From: Deltaproteobacteria bacterium
Lineage (GTDB): Bacteria; Desulfobacterota; DSM-4660; Desulfatiglandales; B25-G16
Reading direction: 5' to 3'
NCBI GenBank assembly: GCA_020348625.1
Contig: CP070752.1
Span: forward strand, 2,261,448 to 2,275,487
DNA: 14,040 nucleotides
Both the position numbers and the translations under genes were made by a program. A model generated the notes under the pieces. That model was given only the letters and a program-made list of their open reading frames with translations. It had not been told where the DNA came from and searched no databases. This document shows, piece by piece, positions 2,834 to 14,040 of the stretch (position 1 is its first letter; the number at the start of each line of letters is the position of its first letter).

Positions 2834-3163
2834 TACGCTAATAATGCCATAAGCCGGTTCTATCCTCAAGCTCGGCCCTATCTGGGGCGAAACATCATGT
2901 CGCTATGGGATGCGAAAAAAATGCTACTATCGCGACATGGGACGGACCCCCAAAAGGCGGAGTGGCAGTTCCCACTCATAACAGAGCATATCCATGTAAA
3001 ATCGCGAGATCCCCTCGTTGCGCAGTTGAAGCACTTCTTCAAGGTTGTAAAAGGAATGAAAGAACCCAGAACCAGCGGAGAGGATGCCACAAGGACGCTG
3101 GCAGTGGCTCAGGCGATTTTGAAATCGGGGGCGAGTGGAGATCCAGTGGATTTATCATATTAA
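2834..3163 (+). pseudogene. 3' remnant of a Gfo/Idh/MocA-family oxidoreductase
   Basis: The frame is open from just after a TAA at 2831-2833; the first ATG is at 2897 (88 codons to the stop). The encoded segment has the look of the extreme C-terminus of Gfo/Idh/MocA NAD(P)-dependent sugar or cyclitol dehydrogenases: EWQFPLITEHI, DPLVAQLKHFFKVVKG, SGEDATRTLAVAQAILKS, then G.PVDL. Full-length members are about 330-390 residues, and the N-terminal Rossmann domain is missing. The intact sauS-like gene ends 20 bases before this frame opens, leaving no room for the rest, so the gene is 5'-truncated. No convincing ribosome binding site precedes the ATG. A small free-standing protein is possible but less likely. 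Confidence 0.55.
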
Positions 3164-3574: not shown

Positions 3575-4918
3575 ATGGGCCAGGATCGAAGGAAGTTGAG
3601 ATCCCAGCTCAGACTTCATTCCAGGTGGAAGAAAACCGTTTTGATTATCCCTTGCCTGGCCAGTGAGTTTACGGATTCCGCAAATCTCCCGGTCTTCAGG
3701 AACATCCTCAGGCACTTAAGGAATATGCCCTATCTTTCAAGCATTATCTTCGGGCTGGATAGAGCGACTGAGGATGAGGCCCGCGGGCTCAGAGATCTCA
3801 TAACGGCAGCGGGAATCAGAAATTCCCTTATCCAGTGGAACAATGGTCCAGGTTTCAGCGATATCTACCGCCAGCTCAACGAGGCGGGATTCAACATTAC
3901 CGAACCTGGCAAGGGCAAGAATATGTTTCTCAGCTTCGGTATCGCCATTGCTCTGGGTGCTGAATCGATCGGGCTGATTGACGCAGATATTAGAACCTTT
4001 AGGCGTGTTCAGCTCGACCGGCTCTTTTATCCCGTAGTGGTTCTGAATTACGATTTTTCCAAGGCCTACTATGCCCGCATTTCCGAAAGAGGAGAGATTT
4101 ACGGCAGGGTCAAGCGGCTCCTTCTGGACCCCCTCCTGCTTTCCCTGAAAAGAAAATTCACGGAAAGCAAAGAGGAAAAGATGCTGCGCCTCATAGATTT
4201 TCTGCTGGGCTTCAATTACCAACTCTCCGGTGAAGTAGCTTTTCATGTGGACCTTCTGAAAAAGATGCGCTTTGCCACCAACTGGGGCGTTGAAATCTTC
4301 ACTTTGATTGAGGTATACCGCAAGGCCTCATCTCCAGCCCAGGTTATGTTCACCGAGGAAGCCTTTGATCACAAGCATCAAGAGGCCTCGCCTGAAGATC
4401 AGGCAAAAGGACTTAATCGAATGGCAATCGACATTGTCACTACCTTGATGAATGCGCTCGTCATCGAGGAAGGGCTCGAGATCTCCGATACCTTCTTCAG
4501 GGATTTGGCCATCACCTACCAAGCTGTGGCCGAAGACCAGATCAAAAAGTATTCCGACGACGCCAGTTTTAGCAACCTGAAATACGACCGTGACGCCGAA
4601 GAGTATCTTGTTAGAAATGTGTTGCACAACTCAATCCTTGAAGCCGGCGAAGTATTGACCTCACCCTACAGAATCACAGAGCGGTTTTTGAGATTTGTGA
4701 ATTCCCATTCGGAATTCAGGTCATTCATCGAAAAGGGCCTTGCCGAAGCAATACTTGAGGTTGAGCGCAAGACACGGGGAAGTATCTTCGAGATGCCACA
4801 AACTGTCTCATGGGAACGGGTATCGAACAAACTGCCCCGCATTTTCTATGATCTCATCGAGGTCGTGGAAGAGGAAAAAAGACGGTTCACCCAATCCGGG
4901 CAAGCCGAGATTCCCTAG
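3575..4918 (+). CDS. gpgS: Glucosyl-3-phosphoglycerate synthase-like glycosyltransferase (GT-A fold, GT81-like)
   Basis: A 447-residue protein. GpgS transfers glucose from an NDP-sugar to 3-phosphoglycerate, the first step to the compatible solute glucosylglycerate. Seen: KKTVLIIPCLASEF near residue 19, a PGKGKNMFLSFG block (111-122), the DAD metal-binding motif in IGLIDADIRTF (136-138), DFSKAYYARI, LSGE (217-220), NWGVEIFTLIEVYR, and DHKHQ (265-269). This arrangement is typical of the bacterial GpgS/MpgS family. The C-terminal part beyond about 400 is somewhat longer than I expect. The ATG at 3575 has no clear Shine-Dalgarno sequence. A TTG at 3596, preceded by GAAGGA, is an alternative start that keeps all motifs. 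The expected partner phosphatase (GpgP) is not in the window. A mannosyl-3-phosphoglycerate synthase is the main alternative. Confidence 0.75.
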   Translation: MGQDRRKLRSQLRLHSRWKKTVLIIPCLASEFTDSANLPVFRNILRHLRNMPYLSSIIFGLDRATEDEARGLRDLITAAGIRNSLIQWNNGPGFSDIYRQLNEAGFNITEPGKGKNMFLSFGIAIALGAESIGLIDADIRTFRRVQLDRLFYPVVVLNYDFSKAYYARISERGEIYGRVKRLLLDPLLLSLKRKFTESKEEKMLRLIDFLLGFNYQLSGEVAFHVDLLKKMRFATNWGVEIFTLIEVYRKASSPAQVMFTEEAFDHKHQEASPEDQAKGLNRMAIDIVTTLMNALVIEEGLEISDTFFRDLAITYQAVAEDQIKKYSDDASFSNLKYDRDAEEYLVRNVLHNSILEAGEVLTSPYRITERFLRFVNSHSEFRSFIEKGLAEAILEVERKTRGSIFEMPQTVSWERVSNKLPRIFYDLIEVVEEEKRRFTQSGQAEIP

Positions 4919-5087
4919 CCCAGATCTTGATTACAAATGCACAGATCCTTTGATGGCGCCTTGGTAGTGTTACGACAGCAGCTTTCAGCCTGGAAAGCAA
5001 CTGCGCCGAAACACGAAACAAATTTGATTATGGAGTTCTGCACAAGGGTTATTTAAGGTTTTTCTCTAAAATCCCGAAAAAGCCACT

Positions 5088-6266
5088 ATGCCCCTATTCG
5101 CTATCTTAACTGATTTACGATTTCAGGATGTGCTGGATATCCTGTTTCTTGCCGTTGTTGTGTATCATCTCTATCTCTGGTTTTGGGGAACAAAGGCCTT
5201 TAAGGCGCTGGTAGGTCTCCTGGCTTTAGGGATCATTTTCACCCTCGCTCGCTTCTGGGGTCTGTTTCTTACTACCTGGGTGTTTCAAATACTCTGGCAG
5301 GTCTTGATCGTTCTTATTATTATCCTCTTTCAATCGGAGATCCGCCAGGTCCTTGAAAGGGTTAATCCCCTCCAAATGCTCGGACTGCGCTCTTTTCCGA
5401 AGTCGGCGGGTTGGGTACCGAGCTTTGTTAAAGGGATATACTTTCTGGCCGAGCGTAGAATCGGGGCCCTCATCATTTTCGAGCGTACAGACTTGGTGAA
5501 CGAATTGATCACCGGAGGAATTCCTTTGGAGGGTGAGCCGTCATCCGAGATCCTGGTGAGTGTTTTTCAAAAAGAATCGCCCTTGCATGACGGCGCACTC
5601 TTGATCCAAAAGGGGAGAATCGCAAAGGCAGCCTGCTATCTCCCTCTGAGCTCTGCTGAAGGGCTTCCCAAGAACTGGGGCACAAGGCACAGAGCCGCTT
5701 TAGGGCTTTCCGAGCGCTGTGATGCCTGGGTACTGGTTGTTTCAGAGGAACGAGGTGAGGTTTCCCTTGCCCGGGAGGGGAAAATCGTGCCCATCGCAAA
5801 TCCGGAGGAACTTGCCGACCTCGTTGAAAGAGCCACCAAACCACCTGCTGTCTCTGATGGAAATTGGCGGGAAAGGACTCGCTCTGTAGTAATCCGTCGC
5901 TGGCCCATTAAGCTTGGGGCCTTGGGATTGGTATTTGTGTTGTGGTTGCTCCTGGCAGGACAGCAGAACTTCGAGGTAGCCCTTACACTGCCCGTTGAGA
6001 TGAAGAATATTCCCGAGAACGTCGAGATTCTGGAGCCCTTGAATCCAGAGGTCCTTATCACAGTGCGAGGGCTTCGAAAGGACGCAAGCACATTGAATAG
6101 CAGAAACGTGCGTGCCGAAATCGACCTCTCGCCCGCTCGTTTCGGCAGTAAGCTTTTCCGGATCACTCGCGACGAGATTGATCTGCCCAACGATAGGATC
6201 AGCATTGTGAACATAAAGCCGACCCTGATGGAATTCAAGTTCAAGAAGGCTTTGGCTCCGGAATAA
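5088..6266 (+). CDS. cdaA: Membrane diadenylate cyclase (CdaA type) fused to a YbbR domain
   Basis: 392 residues. It makes c-di-AMP from two ATP at the inner membrane. Seen in order: three hydrophobic segments (about 14-32, 40-57, 63-81), a DAC/DisA_N domain (about 90-240) with both catalytic signatures, DGA at 168-170 in SPLHDGALLI and RHR at 200-202 in GTRHRAALG, a fourth membrane segment (about 274-290), and one YbbR-like beta domain (about 293-386). In Bacillus, CdaA (about 270 residues) and its YbbR-repeat partner CdaR are separate proteins of one operon; here they are joined, with a single YbbR unit placed outside the membrane by prediction. The start gives the usual CdaA N-terminus (DVLDILFLAVVVYHLYLW), although no good ribosome binding site is seen. 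The gap to the upstream gene is 169 bases. Co-transcription with the neighbouring glycosyltransferases is possible. Confidence 0.92.
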   Translation: MPLFAILTDLRFQDVLDILFLAVVVYHLYLWFWGTKAFKALVGLLALGIIFTLARFWGLFLTTWVFQILWQVLIVLIIILFQSEIRQVLERVNPLQMLGLRSFPKSAGWVPSFVKGIYFLAERRIGALIIFERTDLVNELITGGIPLEGEPSSEILVSVFQKESPLHDGALLIQKGRIAKAACYLPLSSAEGLPKNWGTRHRAALGLSERCDAWVLVVSEERGEVSLAREGKIVPIANPEELADLVERATKPPAVSDGNWRERTRSVVIRRWPIKLGALGLVFVLWLLLAGQQNFEVALTLPVEMKNIPENVEILEPLNPEVLITVRGLRKDASTLNSRNVRAEIDLSPARFGSKLFRITRDEIDLPNDRISIVNIKPTLMEFKFKKALAPE

Positions 6267-6490
6267 ACGCTGAGCCACATAGCCCATCCGATACCAGACT
6301 CTCTTTCCCATGACCTGAAGCAACCGCAAGCGCTCCAGAAATCCCCTGAGCAATGAGAGCAAAAACTGCTTGATAATTGAACAAAGGTTTATAAGAATAA
6401 GACGGAAAGGAAGAAATACGGAGCCAGCCTGACGATGGCTTGGGCGCTGAGCAGCTAACCTTGAAGGAGCAACCGCAAGAGTAGGAGATC
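6267..6490 (+). other. Intergenic leader with a repeated 12-mer and a possible RNA structure
   Basis: AGCAACCGCAAG occurs twice on the same strand (6319-6330 and 6468-6479), and CGCTGAGC occurs twice (6268-6275 and 6445-6452). A 5-bp stem (AGCCA 6422-6426 with TGGCT 6436-6440) precedes GCAGCTAACC at 6451-6460, which resembles the 3' part of the ydaO c-di-AMP riboswitch. The matching 5' half of that motif is not seen. TATAAG at 6390-6395 could be a -10 box. Confidence 0.3.
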
Positions 6491-7732
6491 ATGAATTACG
6501 ATACGGCATTGAGGGCCTATACCTCAAAGAGGATGGAAGAGATAGAAAACGCTGATATTTTGGTAGGCATTCCCTGCTATAATAATGAGGGAACTATTGC
6601 TCACGTGATCCAGATGGTAACCCATGGGCTCGCCGAGCACTATAAGGACAAAAGGAGTGTTATTCTTATCGCCGACGGCGGTTCAACCGATGACACGAGG
6701 GAGATGGCTAAGGAGTTTGAAATCAAGCCTTGGCAGGAAAAGGTCACCTCCATTTACCGAGGCCCTGCGGGGAAGGGATCGGCCTTCAGGTCAATCTTTG
6801 AGGCGGCCAAGCGCCTGAAGGTCAAAGCCTGCATGGTTGTCGACTCAGACCTTCGCTCTATTACCAGTGACTGGGTCAAGTATCTCCTTGAACCCATCGT
6901 GGAAAAGGGCTATCAGTATGTCTCCCCCATTTACTCGCGCTACAAATACGACGGAACCATTACTAACAACATCGTCTATAATCTCACCCGAGCCCTCTAT
7001 GGCCTCCGTATCCGTCAGCCCATCGGAGGGGACTTCGCCTTCGACGGTGAACTGGCAGCGTATTACATCGATCAGGATGTGTGGAACACCGATGTGGCCC
7101 GATACGGTATAGACATCTGGATGACAACCAACGCCATAACGAATAACTTCAAGATCTGCCAGTCAAATCTGGGAGTAAAAATCCATGATGCCAAAGACCC
7201 AGCTGAATCACTCGGCCCCATGTTTAGACAAGTAGTACACACGCTTTTCGTGCTCATGGAGCAGCACGAGGCGGAATGGAAGGCGGTCAAGGGCAGTCGC
7301 ACCGTTCCCACATTCGGGCTTCAAGAATTTAAAGAACCGGAGCCTATTAAAGTCAACCTTGACCGCCTTGTAACCGAGTTCAAGACCGGTTTCCGGCAGT
7401 TCAGAGGCCTCTACCAGGATATATTCTGCCCTGACTGCTTTGAAGAACTCAAGAGATGCGCGGGCAAAGCAAAAACCAAGTTCGTAATGCCCGTCTCAAC
7501 ATGGATCCAGGTACTTTACGAGACTGCTGCAACATTTCACCACTGGACCCACAACAGGACGCAGCTGGTAAACCTCGTCACCCCCTTGTACCTCGGGCGG
7601 GTTGCTTCCTTTATAAATCAAACGAAAATGATGAACTCGTTTCAAGCCGAGGAACTCGTTGAAGAGCAAGCCCAAGTCTTTGAAGATCACAAGGGCTACC
7701 TTATCGAGATCTGGGACAAAAAGCCGACCTAA
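6491..7732 (+). CDS. Glucosylglycerate synthase-like family 2/81 glycosyltransferase
   Basis: 413 residues. Seen: an N-terminal GT-A domain with VGIPCYNNEGTI (25-36), LIADGGSTDDT (59-69), GPAGKGSAFR (91-100), the metal-binding DSD in VVDSDLRS (118-120), and RQPIGGDFAF (175-184), then a mostly helical C-terminal part. This pattern fits the GT81-related enzymes that include Ggs of Persephonella marina, which makes glucosylglycerate directly from an NDP-glucose and glycerate. The acceptor cannot be read from sequence, and a mannosyl or other hydroxy-acid acceptor is possible. AGGAG at 6483-6487 lies three bases before the ATG, which is rather close. No signal peptide or membrane helix is seen, so it should act in the cytosol. 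It follows the cyclase gene after 224 bases and ends 42 bases before the converging yitT-like gene, with no clear terminator between. Confidence 0.75.
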   Translation: MNYDTALRAYTSKRMEEIENADILVGIPCYNNEGTIAHVIQMVTHGLAEHYKDKRSVILIADGGSTDDTREMAKEFEIKPWQEKVTSIYRGPAGKGSAFRSIFEAAKRLKVKACMVVDSDLRSITSDWVKYLLEPIVEKGYQYVSPIYSRYKYDGTITNNIVYNLTRALYGLRIRQPIGGDFAFDGELAAYYIDQDVWNTDVARYGIDIWMTTNAITNNFKICQSNLGVKIHDAKDPAESLGPMFRQVVHTLFVLMEQHEAEWKAVKGSRTVPTFGLQEFKEPEPIKVNLDRLVTEFKTGFRQFRGLYQDIFCPDCFEELKRCAGKAKTKFVMPVSTWIQVLYETAATFHHWTHNRTQLVNLVTPLYLGRVASFINQTKMMNSFQAEELVEEQAQVFEDHKGYLIEIWDKKPT

Positions 7733-7774
7733 GGCCTGCCTCGCCATGAACACCCAATACAACACCCGGCATGA

Positions 7775-8650
7775 TCACCAATGGGGCTCGTTCCCGATCC
7801 GCTGCCCCATCACCTCGAGCGTATCGTTGACTACTACGAAAGCATCGGGGTCGATAACCTTAACCAGCTGCTTGAGTCGAGGCAGCTCTCTAAAGGTGAT
7901 AACAGTGTAGAGAATCTGCTCTTCCTGGCCGGTATATCCGCCTCGACCCCCTATGATCGTCACTCCCCGCTGGAGTTGCCCCATAATCTCCCGAGAAATC
8001 ACCTCCCATTGCGGAGATATGATGTGCACGGCCTTTCTTTGGCTGAGGCCTGTTACCACCAGATTGACCATGGAGGAGCTGACATACATGAAAATCAAGG
8101 TATAAAGGGCCATCTCTAGGCTAAAGAAAACTGCCGCTCCAAGAAGTATGATGGCATTGAAGGTTAGTATGGTGGAACCCAGGCGGACTGAGAAACGTTT
8201 AAGGAGTATAATTGATAGGATATCGAGCCCTCCTGCCGAGCCCCAAGACCGCAATATGATCCCAGACCCCACACCTGTAATGATGCCAGCCAGAAGGGCA
8301 CTTAAGAGCATGTCATGGACTGGCACGGTGAAGTTCACTAAGACTACGGCACCGGAAAATATAAGGACCCCTGCCAGGCTGTAAAAAAAGAAGCGTCTTC
8401 CCACGTACAACCAGCCCAAAACGAAAAGCGGTATATTGAGCACGGGGTAAAGCCAGCCTACCGGTAATGACGAGAGAAGGTAATGGATCACCAAGGCGAG
8501 CCCGACGAGCCCTCCGCTCACAAAACGATGCGGGATAAGGATTCCGTTTATGGCCGCGGCACACAACACGCTGCCTAGGGCAATAAGCCCTATGTGCCAG
8601 AATATTTGCCTCGTCGATCCCAATCTTGATTTGATGGACCACCGGTGCAT
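7775..8650 (-). CDS. YitT family membrane protein (DUF161 + DUF2179)
   Basis: 291 residues. Seen: an N-terminal region of five to six hydrophobic helices with the family marks GILIPHRFVSGG, LNIPLFVLGW and GSAGGLDILS, then a C-terminal cytosolic DUF2179 domain (about 207-285) with RGVTIIGGRGGYTG, the aromatic/acidic turn QEEQILYTVI, and IDPDAFVVV. The start ATG has AGGAGC about eight bases upstream. The molecular function of YitT proteins is not settled; small-molecule transport or export is usually presumed. As I recall, DUF2179 has a PII/ferredoxin-like fold, in the same clan as the PstA/DarA c-di-AMP receptor. That would fit the neighbouring cyclase, but it is inference. It converges on the Ggs-like gene and diverges from the TrkA-N/DHH gene. 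Confidence 0.88.
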   Translation of the reverse strand: MHRWSIKSRLGSTRQIFWHIGLIALGSVLCAAAINGILIPHRFVSGGLVGLALVIHYLLSSLPVGWLYPVLNIPLFVLGWLYVGRRFFFYSLAGVLIFSGAVVLVNFTVPVHDMLLSALLAGIITGVGSGIILRSWGSAGGLDILSIILLKRFSVRLGSTILTFNAIILLGAAVFFSLEMALYTLIFMYVSSSMVNLVVTGLSQRKAVHIISPQWEVISREIMGQLQRGVTIIGGRGGYTGQEEQILYTVITFRELPRLKQLVKVIDPDAFVVVNDTLEVMGQRIGNEPHW

Positions 8651-8685
8651 TTTTTGCTCCTACAAGATAGAATAGAATTTTTGCT

Positions 8686-8714
8686 CTCAAACCACAATTT
8701 CCGCTCTCTGTCAA
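8686..8714 (-). promoter_or_regulatory. Possible promoter of the yitT-like gene
   Basis: On the minus strand, a perfect TTGACA (8714 to 8709) and a 17-base spacer precede TTTGAG (8691 to 8686), which matches the -10 consensus at only three of six positions. A transcript would start near 8680, about 30 bases before the ATG. Confidence 0.3.
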
Positions 8715-8795
8715 TCATAATGTCGTTCATGTTTGCCGCTATGATCTTTTCCGTGTCACAGAATTCATAGATGATCACTCTCATTAATGTATCAT

Positions 8796-8838
8796 GAGAA
8801 AATCCGGGCAGTCCCATTCACAACAGCTTTCTGCCCGG
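8796..8838 (-). terminator. Terminator- or attenuator-like hairpin upstream of yitT
   Basis: CCGGGCAG (8838 to 8831 on the minus strand) and CTGCCCGG (8811 to 8804) form a perfect 8-bp stem with a 19-base loop. On the minus strand this is followed by ATTTTCTC. The loop is long for a classic terminator. The position, 150 bases ahead of a same-strand gene, would fit attenuation or the end of an unseen transcript. Confidence 0.35.
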
Positions 8839-8881
8839 GAGCTGATGCCCTCCGCCAACAAGGACGAAACCGACTTTTCTT

Positions 8882-8910
8882 TTGACTTTAACCGCCCCAC
8901 CCTTTAGAGT
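8882..8910 (+). promoter_or_regulatory. Possible promoter of the TrkA-N/DHH gene
   Basis: TTGACT (8882-8887), a 17-base spacer and TAGAGT (8905-8910, four of six consensus bases). A transcript from here would carry a leader of about 200 bases that includes all three inverted repeats at 8920-9006. Confidence 0.35.
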
Positions 8911-8960
8911 AGTGATGATGGGATAATCCCGCGTGCTATTGAGAGCACGAAATATTCTCC

Positions 8961-9006
8961 CCTATGGGATGATCATGAGGTCTTTACCTCATGATCATCC
9001 CATAGG
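8961..9006. repeat. Perfect 21-bp inverted repeat with a 4-base loop
   Basis: Bases 8961-8981 are the exact reverse complement of 8986-9006, separated only by CTTT. Each arm begins CCTATGGGATGATCATGAGG or its complement and contains the palindrome ATGATCAT. Only TTTCAC follows on the plus strand and no T-tract follows on the minus strand, so it is a poor terminator in either direction. The flanking genes diverge, which also argues against a terminator. Confidence 0.9.
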
Positions 9007-9124
9007 TTTCACAGCTATGGCTAATTTGAGCAGTACCGTGTTCTCGTTAGAAACTGTTTTGTTGCAGCTCCACTTGCTTGCTCCGTGGATAATGCGTTTG
9101 TTATAGCAAACCCGGGTGATACTC

Positions 9125-10540
9125 ATGTATATCATTCTAGGAAGCGGAACTGCTGGCTATTATGCGGCCAACCAACTGAAAAACATGGGTCATCAGTTCA
9201 CCCTTGTGGACATCAAGCCCGAAAGAACCGAGGCCCTCAGGGAGATGGGCTTCGAACGTGTGGTAGAAGGCGATATCACTTCACCGGACCTCTTGAAGAA
9301 AATCCATATAGAGTCTGCCAAAGGCCTATTAGTGCTGACAACCGACCCGGACTTAAATATGAGGGCTGCGAAGGCGATAAGGGGAATCAGCAAGGAGGTT
9401 CCTATTATCCTGAGAGTGGACAAACAGAATGCCGCCGAGGATTTCAAAGGCCTTGAAATCGACGATATCATTTATCCCAGCTCCGCAGTGGCCGATATGG
9501 CCATCAGAGGCCTTGAAGAGTTAGAACTCAAGAGAAATCTCAAAAGACTGAGTGCAGTGGTGGCCCAAGCCGATAAGCGCATAGGTATCGTTACTCAGGA
9601 CAACCCCGATCCTGATGCCATTGCTAGTGCTGTCAGCCTCAGGAAGATTATAGAAAAGATGGGCAAGAGCGCGGACATAATCTATGGGGGGGAAATCGGC
9701 TACGCGGAGAACAAGGCCCTGATCAATCTCTTGGGTGTAGAAACAATACCAGTCGCTAAAATCAAGCATATCGAAAACTATTCCAAGATAGCCCTCGTTG
9801 AAGCCTCCATCCCGGGGGAGAATAATTGTCTGCCAAAGGAAATCAGTCCCAATATCATTATCGATCACCACCCCTATGACCCTGCAAACATATCGGCGGA
9901 ATATGCGGACATTAGGCCCGAAATCGGGGCAACCTCGACTATCTTGACACAGTACCTGATAGAGCTCGATTTTGAAATATCAACCGAGTTGGCTACCCTG
10001 CTGCTTTATGGCATCAAGACGGACACTGCTGATTTCACCAGGGGCGCTACACCGAAGGATCTTCAAGCAGTGGCCCTTCTGTATCCGAAGGCCTCTCGGG
10101 ACCTGTTAAACAAGATTGAAACGCCACTCATGTCTTCTGAAACCATTGACGTTCTCGGTGAAGCAATAAAGAAGAGGAGAACTATTGGAAGCCTGCTCTT
10201 GGCCAATGTGGGTTTCATCAGCAATAGGGACACCCTGCCCCAGGCAGCAGATCATCTGCTCAAACTTGAGGGGGTGTCCACCGTTCTGGTCCACGGCCTG
10301 AGTGAAGAGGTTGTCCACATTTCAGGCAGAAATAAGGATATCAGGATCAACCTCGGCCAGGTTATGGAGCAGGCCTTTGGAGATATCGGCGAGGCTGGAG
10401 GCCATCCTACAGCTGCAGCGGCACGAATTAAGCTAGGGCTCTTTGGTGGTGCCAAAGACAAAGAGTCTCTGCTGAAACTAGCCGAGGAGGCCATAACAGA
10501 TCGGTTCTTACGGATAGTAGGGGTCGAAGAAAAGAAGTGA
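9125..10540 (+). CDS. TrkA-N (RCK_N) domain fused to a DHH/DHHA1 phosphoesterase
   Basis: 471 residues from ATG 9125, chosen because MYIILGSG is the usual TrkA-N start and GGGTGA lies just upstream; a GTG at 9116 would add three residues. Seen: a Rossmann domain (1-125) with GSGTAG and the acidic VDIKPER that binds the NAD ribose, then a DHH domain (about 150-300) with DNPDPDAIASA (159-169), IIIDHHPYD (DHH at 247-249) and YGIKTDTADF, then DHHA1 with GEAGGHPTAAAA (423-434). DHH/DHHA1 enzymes such as GdpP and NrnA cleave c-di-AMP, pApA or nanoRNA. The His expected before DNPDPD is Gln158, and the Asp of the second metal motif appears as Glu226 in LVEASIP, so activity may be altered. The TrkA-N part suggests regulation by NAD(H) or a link to potassium transport, but there is no membrane part. 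Confidence 0.88.
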   Translation: MYIILGSGTAGYYAANQLKNMGHQFTLVDIKPERTEALREMGFERVVEGDITSPDLLKKIHIESAKGLLVLTTDPDLNMRAAKAIRGISKEVPIILRVDKQNAAEDFKGLEIDDIIYPSSAVADMAIRGLEELELKRNLKRLSAVVAQADKRIGIVTQDNPDPDAIASAVSLRKIIEKMGKSADIIYGGEIGYAENKALINLLGVETIPVAKIKHIENYSKIALVEASIPGENNCLPKEISPNIIIDHHPYDPANISAEYADIRPEIGATSTILTQYLIELDFEISTELATLLLYGIKTDTADFTRGATPKDLQAVALLYPKASRDLLNKIETPLMSSETIDVLGEAIKKRRTIGSLLLANVGFISNRDTLPQAADHLLKLEGVSTVLVHGLSEEVVHISGRNKDIRINLGQVMEQAFGDIGEAGGHPTAAAARIKLGLFGGAKDKESLLKLAEEAITDRFLRIVGVEEKK

Positions 10541-10563: not shown

Positions 10564-10821
10564 CTACTCCTCTTGCGCAGCCTCTTCTTTCTTGCCGATT
10601 TTTTCCGCGGCTTTTTCTAGGGTTGCAGCCAGTTTTTTCCTGAGCTCATCTTCCCCCTTTTTAAGCTCGACAATCCTCGCTTTGAGGGCAGCAATATCGT
10701 CCTCAGCGGTCCTTCCCGCCCTTTCATAGGCGAGGAGCGAGATAACGATTGCTATAATGGCAACAATCAGGGCCAAAAACGCCATAAACCCTCCACGTCT
10801 CTTCGTCTCCCTTTCAGCCAT
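10564..10821 (-). CDS. Small single-pass membrane protein with coiled-coil tail
   Basis: 85 residues, complete, family not recognised. A short basic N-terminus (AERETKRRGG) leads into one membrane helix (about 13-32, FLALIVAIIAIVISLLAY). A charged helical, probably coiled-coil tail of about 50 residues follows, rich in Lys, Glu and Ala (ALKARIVELKKGEDELRKKL) and ending AAQEE. The ATG is preceded by AAGGAGGTC, a strong ribosome binding site. It lies 84 bases downstream of a second small protein of the same layout and was probably transcribed with it. It converges on the TrkA-N/DHH gene with 23 bases between the stops and no clear terminator. A structural or scaffold role at the membrane is a guess. 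Confidence 0.7.
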   Translation of the reverse strand: MAERETKRRGGFMAFLALIVAIIAIVISLLAYERAGRTAEDDIAALKARIVELKKGEDELRKKLAATLEKAAEKIGKKEEAAQEE

Positions 10822-10905
10822 GGTTAAGACCTCCTTCGTTGAAAGTGAAAAGCGGAATCACGCAATACCCCCCTGTGTCTCTTGACGGTACTCTTAATGT
10901 TTTGG

Positions 10906-11172
10906 CTATTTCTTGCTCTTTTCGCTTTCTTTCTTTGTCGCAGCCTTCGGGCCTTGCTTTTTTTCCTCGACCCCTCTTATAGCTGCCTCCATCCTGTCTA
11001 GGACATCTGCCGTCTTATCTCGCAGGGAATCGGTTGCCTTGGCAACGGTCTCCCCAACATTAGTCAAAACCTCCGTCTGTTTCTTCAGGTCTGCAACTCC
11101 TCCAACCTTGTAATAAGCCAGGATAGCTATAATAAGGGCTATAATCGAAATTATGAGTGCTAACGTCTCCAT
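10906..11172 (-). CDS. Small single-pass membrane protein with amphipathic helical tail
   Basis: 88 residues, complete, family not recognised. One N-terminal membrane helix (about 3-21, LALIISIIALIIAILAYY) is followed by a long amphipathic helix (ADLKKQTEVLTNVGETVAKA, then SLRDKTADVLDRMEAAIRG) and a Lys/Glu-rich tail. The helix recalls apolipoprotein- or phasin-like segments, but this is only a resemblance. Its ribosome binding site, AAAGGAGGTGAT, is a near-perfect anti-16S match, and it has its own promoter at 11256-11286, so strong expression is likely. The layout is like that of the 85-residue protein downstream (shared ALI..I..IIAI..LAY pattern), so the two may be distant paralogues or partners. 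Confidence 0.72.
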   Translation of the reverse strand: METLALIISIIALIIAILAYYKVGGVADLKKQTEVLTNVGETVAKATDSLRDKTADVLDRMEAAIRGVEEKKQGPKAATKKESEKSKK

Positions 11173-11301: not shown

Positions 11302-11754
11302 CTATCTCTTGACGACCAAAACGGGTGTTCCGGATTTTCTGATAACCTTTTCAGAAACAGAGCCAAGGAGCATTTCCTCAACGTTGCTCTTACCGTGAGA
11401 GCCGATCACTATTGGCGAAACGCCTTCCTCTTGTTCAACCCTCAATATTTCAGTCAACGGAATTCCCCTTTCAATCCTCAGCTTCACCCTAAAGCCCATT
11501 TGCCTCAATCTGGCCCCTATGTTATCCATTTCTTTCCAAGCTTCTTCTTCGATTCTCCTTACCATCTCTACAGAACCTTTCGACGCGTGCAACAGACAAA
11601 TATCGCCGATTGCCCTTTCATCAATGACGTGCAAACCGATAACTTCTTTTCCTCCAGCTTCTTTCAATTTCGTAATGTAGTTCATGGCCTTATTCGCTAC
11701 ATTTGAGAAATCGGTTGGATATAGGATCTTATCAAACATGTATCTCAATCCCAT
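11302..11754 (-). CDS. Universal stress protein (UspA family)
   Basis: 150 residues, the usual length of a single-domain Usp. Seen: the start MFDKILYPTDFS, the strand VIGLHVIDE, and the ATP-binding signature G-2X-G-9X-G(S): GSHGKSNVEEMLLGSVSEKV, ending TPVLVVKR. It is therefore expected to be an ATP-binding Usp, cytosolic and probably dimeric. Two starts are possible: 11754 (five extra residues, MGLRY) or 11739, which gives the standard N-terminus; neither has a strong ribosome binding site. It lies 58 bases downstream of the ATP-grasp gene on the same strand and may share its transcript. Usp proteins respond to starvation and stress in general, so the neighbourhood says little more about its exact job. 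Confidence 0.9.
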   Translation of the reverse strand: MGLRYMFDKILYPTDFSNVANKAMNYITKLKEAGGKEVIGLHVIDERAIGDICLLHASKGSVEMVRRIEEEAWKEMDNIGARLRQMGFRVKLRIERGIPLTEILRVEQEEGVSPIVIGSHGKSNVEEMLLGSVSEKVIRKSGTPVLVVKR

Positions 11755-11812: not shown

Positions 11813-12760
11813 TCACGCTTGAGCACCAAAATGCGTTCGTGCAAAAGCCACACGTTCCTCAACGCCATGCAGGCTCCTATGGTTTTGTTCAACCAGGTTC
11901 AAACAGGGTAACAGTCCGGCGTGGTTGGCAATCTGGATATTGAGCCCAGGGCGTGCATTCAGCTCCAGAATCAGTGCACCCTTGTCTTTATCAAGCACGA
12001 TATCTACTCCTTGATATCCCAGGCCACTAAGCTCATAGCAGTTCGCTGCCAGCCTCAATAAATCTGCCCAGTCTGGGATTCTCAAGCCAGTTATAGGCCC
12101 TCCAGTGTCAGGATGTTCGGTGACAATATCGTTGCCCCACACCGCGGTGAGCGTTGTACCGGTTGCGATGTCGACTCCGGCACCGAGCGCGCCCTGGTGA
12201 AGGTTGGCCCGGCCACCTGACATTCGTGTCGGCAAACGGACCATGGACATTACGGGCACACCCAAAAACACGATGACACGGACATCGGGGACTCCCTGGT
12301 AACTGACGGTTTCAAAAAGAGGATCAGGACGGACCCGATATTCGATCAGGGCTTTGTCTGGTTGTCCGCCCAGACTGTACAGGCCGCTCACCACATTCGC
12401 AACATGATGCCTAAGCTCTTCGTGGCTTATCAATAAACCGTCGTGTTTTCGGTACAGGTCCTTCAAACGGCCTGAGATTACGAGAATTCCATCCCCACCA
12501 CTACCATAGGCTGGTTTTATCACAAAATCCGAATAGTGTCTCAGCAGGTCAGGTAAACTCCGGAGCTGATATTCTCCCTGCACCACAGCATAAAGCTCCG
12601 GAACGGCTATACCTGCTCTGAGGGCAAGCTCCTTAGTGCGCAACTTGTCATCGACCAAAGGATATAATTTGCGCGGGTTGTGCCAGAGCGTGTACTCTGC
12701 ATTGCGCCGGTTCAACCCCAGCACCCCTATAGCAGCAAGCCGTCTTGCCAGTTCAAACAT
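11813..12760 (-). CDS. ATP-grasp ligase, RimK-related (alpha-L-glutamate ligase-like)
   Basis: 315 residues. Seen: DDKLRTKELALRAGIAVPE (a typical pre-ATP-grasp segment), the nucleotide-binding FVIKPAYGSGGDGI (79-92), PDVRVIVFLG, a flexible loop rich in Gly and His (SGGRANLHQGALGAGVDI), and the metal-binding end LILELNARPGLNIQIANHAG. These fit the group of RimK-related ligases that form an amide bond between a carboxylate and an amino acid or peptide with ATP. The ATG overlaps the stop of the upstream membrane protein as TGATG, so the two are translationally coupled. Published comparative work on amidoligases (Iyer, Aravind and colleagues) links this ligase type to the 7TM inactive-transglutaminase proteins. 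The substrate is unknown. Confidence 0.85.
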   Translation of the reverse strand: MFELARRLAAIGVLGLNRRNAEYTLWHNPRKLYPLVDDKLRTKELALRAGIAVPELYAVVQGEYQLRSLPDLLRHYSDFVIKPAYGSGGDGILVISGRLKDLYRKHDGLLISHEELRHHVANVVSGLYSLGGQPDKALIEYRVRPDPLFETVSYQGVPDVRVIVFLGVPVMSMVRLPTRMSGGRANLHQGALGAGVDIATGTTLTAVWGNDIVTEHPDTGGPITGLRIPDWADLLRLAANCYELSGLGYQGVDIVLDKDKGALILELNARPGLNIQIANHAGLLPCLNLVEQNHRSLHGVEERVAFARTHFGAQA

Positions 12761-14040
12761 CAGAAGCCACCTTTAACCAATGCCTTGAAACGGAGGAGCT
12801 CCACGAGGCGGTAGCCATAGTAGCGCCCCAACAGCAACGTCCCTGCCAGCAGCACCAGCAGCAACTCCGGGAATACGAACACGAGATGTTCCACATAACT
12901 GATGGTCATGATGAGGTGGGCCAAAGCTGCAACTATGAGACTGCCAGCCCCCTGTTGTAAGGCCTCGCTTGCACCGCGCTCTTCCCACACGATGGACATC
13001 CTTTCAATCGTCATAGTCAAGATGACCATGGGGAAAAGTGCAACGGACAGCCCGCGCTCGAAACCAAGCTTGTGTGTCAGCACGCTCAACGCGGCCATTA
13101 CCAAGACCACAACAAAAAGCACACACGCCAAGCGGGGAACCAGCAATAGCTTCAAGTGTTCAAGATAGCGGCGTGCGCTCAGACCAAGACCAACCACTAA
13201 ACTAAAGAGTATGATGCCCCACAGCAATTGGGTCTCTCGGAATGCAAGAGCAATGAGCACGGGCATGAACGTTCCGAAAGTCTTGATGCCGATAACATTG
13301 CGCAGAATAACCAGCAGAAATGCACCCACTGGGATGAGCAGCAGTATACGATACACCGCCTGCGTATGGATCGGCAGGCTGAAGAGCGAGAACTCAAGCA
13401 AGAAAGGGCTCTTAATCCTTCCGCTTTCGATCGCGGCACGAACTGCCTCTTCCTCTTGCAGATTTACCGACAAGGTTACGTGCAGTCTATCCCCGCCTTC
13501 CAACCTCACCAGCGGCTCTGTCCCTCTATACCATGGGAAATAATCAGCAGGGACTCCCGAGTCTCCTGTAATCGGATCGTATGGCCGCCACCGCTTTTCT
13601 TCGTATACCTGAAACCACTGGATTAATGGGGCCTCACGGTTTTCCCACTCCAATCGCATACCCTGTATGGCCCGGGCAGCTATCCCTGCGTGCCCCAGGA
13701 TCTGTACCGCGATCTTCACCTTCTTTGAAACAGCCGCTTGCTTACCGACCAGTAAAGCCGTATTGTTATCGGGCTGAGGGCCGTTGAGGCGTTTTATCAG
13801 CTCCTTCACAAAGGTATCAACGTCGGCAGATTGGGCGTGGATGTCGGCGATCAGAGATTCGGCAGCCGCAAGGTAAGCGCCTTCAAACGTAGGCTTTTCT
13901 CCCTCCGGTGTTGTTACTGCCACCGGCAGCGCCTCGGCGTCAATTCGCCGAACCACTGCGCGATAGTAAAGAGTCTGTTGCCCTTGAGCCTTCCGGATTG
14001 ACCACACTGCTTGCCGATTACCATCTTTGATAGCAGTGCC
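12760..14040 (-). CDS. Inactive transglutaminase domain fused to seven membrane helices (UUP1-type, 5' partial)
   Basis: The frame is open to the window edge, so the gene begins outside; a GTG at 14007 is not a convincing start, since coding continues upstream without a stop. 426 residues are visible of an expected 500 or so. Seen: a periplasmic-type N-terminal domain ending in a degenerate transglutaminase fold (KVKIAVQILGHAGIAARAIQG, then WFQVYEEKRWRPYDPITGD), in which the usual catalytic Cys is not apparent. About seven membrane helices follow, starting AVYRILLLIPVGAFLLVILR and including the family hallmark GIKTFGTFMPVLIALAF. The stop overlaps the ATP-grasp start (TGATG). The pair is known as a conserved, functionally uncharacterised module, probably tied to peptide or envelope modification. 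The retropepsin-like protease sometimes found with it is not in the window. Confidence 0.88.
   Translation of the reverse strand, partial: GTAIKDGNRQAVWSIRKAQGQQTLYYRAVVRRIDAEALPVAVTTPEGEKPTFEGAYLAAAESLIADIHAQSADVDTFVKELIKRLNGPQPDNNTALLVGKQAAVSKKVKIAVQILGHAGIAARAIQGMRLEWENREAPLIQWFQVYEEKRWRPYDPITGDSGVPADYFPWYRGTEPLVRLEGGDRLHVTLSVNLQEEEAVRAAIESGRIKSPFLLEFSLFSLPIHTQAVYRILLLIPVGAFLLVILRNVIGIKTFGTFMPVLIALAFRETQLLWGIILFSLVVGLGLSARRYLEHLKLLLVPRLACVLFVVVLVMAALSVLTHKLGFERGLSVALFPMVILTMTIERMSIVWEERGASEALQQGAGSLIVAALAHLIMTISYVEHLVFVFPELLLVLLAGTLLLGRYYGYRLVELLRFKALVKGGF

Follow-up and report, generated by a model that had tools for sequence, protein, structure and literature searches.

Cyclic di-AMP (c-di-AMP) controls the uptake of K+ and compatible solutes in Gram-positive bacteria, where Trk/Ktr, BusA/OpuC and BusR are involved (PMC10243994). 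In cyanobacteria, the nucleotide is tied to glucose-polymer metabolism and osmotic tolerance via the PII-like protein SbtB (PMC10117731). What is known of osmoregulation by c-di-AMP chiefly concerns the uptake of K+ and solutes, and most of it comes from Gram-positive organisms. For solute synthesis, a known arrangement is the gpgS-gpgP-ggs operon of Persephonella marina, in which genes for a GpgS-type enzyme, a phosphatase and a one-step synthase stand together and which is not known to include a diadenylate cyclase. Here, we describe a locus in a stretch of 14,040 nucleotides (positions 2,261,448-2,275,487 of CP070752.1, assembly GCA_020348625.1, forward strand; hereafter the window, whose positions are used as coordinates), in which the gene for a CdaA-type diadenylate cyclase (DAC) lies between genes for two glycosyltransferases, GTa and GTb. 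A literature search, to which most subscription papers were out of reach, found no report of a c-di-AMP gene beside glycosyl-glycerate synthases.

We searched all 85 genomes of the order that includes genome G018, probably Desulfatiglandales; a class-level search returned the identical 85. DAC had matches in 68 (E ≤ 1e-20) and GTa in 75 (E ≤ 1e-30). GTb had matches in 77 at 1e-30, a limit that takes in its paralogue GTb', and in 30 at 1e-115. Linkage was counted by hand as a DAC of at least 50% identity and a GTb of at least 60%, no more than 10 kb apart on one contig, the identity and distance limits being chosen after the lists were inspected. DAC and GTb are linked in 9 of the 17 genomes that hold both (G003, G004, G018, G019, G052, G053, G056, G067 and G071); random placement from genome sizes expects 0.11, a figure that ignores the kinship of these related genomes. 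Two genomes fall outside the count: G001, linked with its GTb cut, and G006, with fragments of both genes. Looser limits (DAC E ≤ 1e-40, GTb at least 46%) give 9 of 28. The DAC-GTb linkage is beyond chance.

The linked genomes do not form one group on the DAC tree, whose 29 rows represent 25 of the 68 DAC genomes of the order, G022 from outside it and the window, with two genomes present twice (unlinked G039, G045, G046, G079, G083 and G084 were left out). The linked label makes three changes, gains or losses, a number forced by well-supported branches, and falls on the window with G001, G003, G004, G018 and G019; on G052 with G053; and on G056 with G067 and G071. Linked GTbs form two subgroups, 79-95% and 62-70% identical to that of the window. 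The full order GTa-DAC-GTb occurs in the window and loci L003, L004 and L031 (GTb 87-91%), and in L001, where GTb is cut by the contig end; G019 has the DAC-GTb pair with GTa on a different contig. A second GTb of G018 (L120, 7504-9058) is closely preceded by two DAC-like pieces (65% and 48%), which could be traces of a duplicated DAC-GTb pair whose DAC then decayed.

The partners of the linked pair vary and are often osmotic in kind: K+ transport genes, a betaine-type transporter, a mechanosensitive-channel gene, YitT. In G052 and G053, GTb, a GpgS-type gene (GTa'), GlgA and DAC follow on one strand, with YitT about 5 kb further. In G067 and G071, TrkH, TrkA and a third gene separate GTb from DAC, and GlgA and YitT flank GTb on its far side (in G067 over two contigs, left unjoined). 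GTb adjoins DAC in G056, where an MscS-type gene is about 1.6 kb away. In G006, the end of DAC, an SBP/SLT protein, a TrkA-N/DHH protein and MarR share one strand, and the other carries a CBS-bearing ATPase of the ProV family (408 bits against a cut-off of 327) and its permease. A TrkA-N/DHH gene directly follows GTb in G027, and in G022 DAC is directly followed by a DHH protein (34%) without TrkA-N. YitT, present in 29 of the 85 genomes, is no more than 10 kb from GTb or DAC in eight (G001, G006, G018, G052, G053, G067, G071 and G084). This recurrence of DAC, in a single order of poorly studied sediment bacteria, near genes for osmolyte synthesis and K+ or solute transport suggests that the signal helps cells face salt and water stress. 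The neighbourhood is a real, lineage-restricted c-di-AMP/osmoadaptation set.

The cyclase has a strong DAC domain in Pfam (131.8 bits, cut-off 27), with motifs DGA at residue 168 and GTRHRAA at 198 (RHR at 200), and matches the solved CdaA 9g69 (6.5e-43). The NCBIfam CdaA model TIGR00159 scores just below its cut-off (188.5 against 188.8). Domain, motifs and N-terminal helices (predicted membrane segments within residues 12-86) agree with the CdaA type. The last ~100 residues follow a membrane segment predicted at 271-292 by crude hydropathy. The first-pass annotation had spoken of DAC-YbbR fusions; Pfam finds no YbbR domain in the protein at E ≤ 0.001. In Firmicutes, CdaA has cdaR and glmM as neighbours; a Pfam scan of ten proteins of the window found neither GlmM nor a separate YbbR.

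The transferases had been called GpgS-like (GTa) and Ggs-like (GTb); likeness to GpgS holds for both at family level and no closer. GTa reaches 210 bits with GpgS_Meth against a cut-off of 700, GTb 72 with PRK13915 GpgS against 262, and neither attains the curated GpgS equivalog cut-off. No solved relative of GTa was found at E ≤ 0.001. The fold of GTb, C-terminal helical part included, matches one-step glycosyl-glycerate synthases (Ggs/MGS), and on this comparison we dropped GTb as a plain GpgS. Mannosylglycerate synthase of Rhodothermus marinus (2bo4, 2y4k), among the closest known systems, differs from it, with 17% identity, and sequence profiles score GpgS higher for GTb. Fold and cassette context together make GTb a well-supported candidate glycosyl-glycerate synthase.

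That context comes in part from a GTa scan of species genomes, which gave 41 loci, all from metagenome-assembled or uncultured Pseudomonadota, Deltaproteobacteria or Desulfobacter-type bacteria. Among the 40 examined for layout (L033 was too short), 23 have GTa, an MPGP-type phosphatase and GTb', a 40-47% paralogue of GTb; the phosphatase of L012 is above the MPGP family cut-off (248 against 165 bits). No DAC was found in these 23 loci within the stretches examined, many of which have short flanks. A GpgS-type gene directly adjoins GTb in 10 of 30 GTb genomes (G024, G052, G053, G056, G073, G074, G079, G081, G082 and G083), joined by an MPGP-type phosphatase match in G024, G073, G074 and G081. 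Outside the order, 3 of 20 GTb loci (L137, L141 and L142) have both beside GTb, making seven such loci overall, and the other 17 showed no GpgS or phosphatase match. G037 (L154) carries GTb about 1.6 kb from a complete GTa-phosphatase-GTb' set. L012 has a glycerate 2-kinase-like protein close to its GTa cassette, and L132 has one close to GTb; they score 244 and 277 bits where the cut-off is 550. In G018, GTa is at 3.91 Mb, GTb' at 3.41 Mb and the phosphatase at 4.14 Mb; the cassette is thus dispersed in the window's clade. An MPGP-type phosphatase is present in 11 of 13 genomes, and the idea that this clade has none was therefore dropped; the exceptions, G001 and G003, are bins of 1.5-1.7 Mb. 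In G006 (L160, 216-2719), a DUF3417/glycogen-phosphorylase-type gene follows GTa on the same strand.

Downstream lie a YitT membrane protein with a DUF2179 domain and a TrkA-N/DHH protein. DarA/PstA is not claimed as the nearest fold of DUF2179, its score being tied with unrelated ferredoxin folds. The TrkA-N/DHH protein carries DHH and DHHA1 domains with DPDA, DHH and GGH motifs and matches the solved DHH phosphodiesterase TmPDE 5o1u (8.9e-7), and pyrophosphatase and NrnA models match it too. Many organisms that lack c-di-AMP have stand-alone DHH-DHHA1 proteins (PMC10243994). The protein is a possible c-di-AMP or pApA phosphodiesterase.

We tentatively read the locus, as somewhat short of probable, as part of an osmotic-adaptation neighbourhood in the order of G018 in which c-di-AMP restrains K+ and organic solute together. 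GTb would join an NDP-sugar to D-glycerate, giving glucosylglycerate (or mannosylglycerate); GTa would make the phosphorylated form, from which a phosphatase encoded elsewhere would clear the phosphate. The cyclase would raise c-di-AMP at high turgor or K+, the DHH protein would lower it, and the nucleotide would restrain the accumulation of both K+ and the organic solute. Candidate receptors, ahead of the transferases, would be the DUF2179 domain and, in G006, the betaine-type ATPase with its CBS domain; with GTb, these give named candidate receptors that can be tested. Recurrent ties between c-di-AMP genes and solute synthesis within an order of Desulfobacterota would widen the known range of c-di-AMP osmoregulation to uncultured sediment anaerobes and to biosynthesis. 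Judged from genes and domains, c-di-AMP regulation of osmolyte synthesis is plausible. The first-pass proposal of a c-di-AMP-controlled osmolyte locus gains from the recurring linkage, the osmotic neighbours and the synthase fold of GTb; no test supports c-di-AMP binding or controlling either transferase. It is quite doubtful that c-di-AMP directly tunes glycosyl-glycerate synthesis in this lineage of Gram-negative anaerobes, where the DUF2179 domain of YitT would be a PII-like c-di-AMP receptor at the membrane and the TrkA-N/DHH protein a phosphodiesterase that senses nucleotides or redox state; if true, the cell would make, sense and degrade the signal in one complete circuit around an osmolyte of its own making.

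Several observations weigh against joint restraint of K+ and solute. DAC and GTb are unlinked in 8 of the 17 genomes (G014, G027, G039, G045, G046, G079, G083 and G084), some on short contigs, and G002, G005 and G027, the closest relatives of the window's clade, have a DAC of like type without an adjoining GTb. Linkage in related genomes, on which the first-pass annotation had staked its proposal, is present on three branches of the DAC tree within one order and was not seen across Desulfobacterota: a phylum-wide search of 297 genomes (GTb in 66 at E ≤ 1e-115, DAC in 240 at 1e-20) gave, among the matches listed, no linkage outside the order and linked pairs in G018 and G052 only. No ydaO-yuaA riboswitch was found at gathering score in the window or nine related loci (a 5S rRNA was the only match). 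The linked TrkA of L106/L107 has TrkA_C without the RCK_C c-di-AMP signature, Pfam finds TrkA_N and no TrkA_C in the window's TrkA-N/DHH protein, and TrkA_C with the dinucleotide signature was thus found in neither. Matches to the latter protein occur in 59 of the 85 genomes, 55 of them in the DHH part only (31-37%); full-length proteins of its kind (at least 73% identity) are in merely four (G027, G006, G033 and G005). The gaps between GTa, DAC and GTb are 169 and 224 bp and their sequence is unconserved, so that they make no case for co-transcription; no conserved intergenic signals and no clear excess of promoters or terminators were found.

A rival explanation is a shared stress setting and nothing more. 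The cyclase would, as in Firmicutes, work on transporters of K+ and betaine, with the synthases co-located and unaffected by c-di-AMP; transport genes near DAC in G067, G071 and G006 fit, co-expression alone can account for the linkage, and the known c-di-AMP targets are transporters (PMC10243994, PMC10117731). We consider it unlikely, though deserving of real weight: in the window's clade, G052, G053 and G056, synthases and not a K+ or betaine transporter adjoin DAC. Alternatively, c-di-AMP might set how ADP-glucose is shared out between glycogen (via GlgA) and glycosyl-glycerate, like the cyanobacterial effect on glycogen via SbtB-GlgB (PMC10117731). GlgA adjoins GTb or is one gene away in nine genomes (G045, G046, G052, G053, G067, G071, G079, G082 and G083; 29 of 30 GTb genomes examined), and GlgC- or GlgB-type genes are near GTb in some, but glycogen genes are absent from the window and, by the queries used, from the examined stretches of its clade; this explanation is improbable. 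That a rearrangement put DAC beside GTb and the resulting order was passed on without any functional role is very improbable given 9 of 17 against 0.11, label changes at three points of the tree, flanks that differ and the involvement of two GTb subgroups, even with linkage in one order only, unlinked near kin and unconserved intergenic DNA in its favour.

Table 1. Coordinates of the window genes under study and of possibly related genes
Feature	Position	Strand	Support
GTa, GpgS-like glycosyltransferase, 447 aa	3575..4918	+	NCBIfam GpgS_Meth 209.9 bits; Pfam Osmo_MPGsynth marginal
DAC, CdaA-type diadenylate cyclase, 392 aa	5088..6266	+	Pfam DAC 131.8 bits; N-terminal membrane part and extra C-terminal region
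GTb, Ggs/MGS-like glycosyltransferase, 413 aa	6491..7732	+	
YitT membrane protein with C-terminal DUF2179, 291 aa	7775..8650	-	Pfam YitT_membrane 191.4 bits, DUF2179 76.9 bits
TrkA_N + DHH + DHHA1 protein, possible c-di-AMP or pApA phosphodiesterase, 474 aa	9116..10540	+	Pfam
Universal stress protein (Usp; possibly related)	11302..11754	-	Pfam Usp 95.2 bits
ATP-grasp protein and 7TM inactive transglutaminase, RloC/RloB-like (possibly related)	11813..14040	-	TIGR02291 454.7 (cut-off 314); NCBIfam RloB 445.7 (cut-off 900); Pfam 7TM_transglut

The window opens with genes for a thiamine diphosphate (ThDP) enzyme, a SauS-like aldehyde dehydrogenase and an 88-residue open reading frame, followed by GTa, DAC, GTb, YitT/DUF2179 and TrkA_N/DHH/DHHA1; the remaining genes, on the minus strand, encode two small proteins, Usp, the ATP-grasp protein and the 7TM inactive-transglutaminase protein. 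The five genes from GTa to TrkA_N/DHH/DHHA1, as first annotated, proved open, correctly placed and in the right order on an open-reading-frame and Pfam check. The ThDP enzyme (1-2814, with its neighbour), of the acetolactate-synthase/Xsc kind and open at the window start, adjoins the SauS-like aldehyde dehydrogenase, an acylating enzyme that scores 475 bits where the cut-off is 600; the pair is perhaps a sulfonate or aldehyde pathway. The 88-residue frame (2897-3163) matches a sugar-nucleotide dehydrogenase model at its C-terminal end only (253-300 of 302; E 8.8e-5) and looks like a remnant. The two small proteins (10564-11172) have no Pfam match, and relatives in L031 at 74% and 65%. Usp matches at 29% occur also near DAC-GTb in L104/L105. 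The rlo genes of Pseudomonas aeruginosa have a role in hypo-osmotic tolerance (PMC12239564); no RloA-type protease was found among the window proteins scanned.

The locus resembles the Gram-positive system in its CdaA-type cyclase, its DHH/DHHA1 protein, the K+ and CBS-domain betaine-type transporters of some relatives, and its osmotic theme. It differs in that the recurrent partner is a solute synthase and not a transporter alone, and the host is a Gram-negative anaerobe. GlgA beside GTb in nine genomes of the order recalls c-di-AMP-SbtB-GlgB of cyanobacteria, whereas in our locus a YitT membrane protein carries the PII-group domain as a fusion; no SbtB turned up, and none was searched for. 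L141, L142 and L149-L152 group GpgS-type, phosphatase and one-step synthase-type genes, like the P. marina operon; in contrast, the window's clade has this cassette broken up, with DAC between GTa and GTb.
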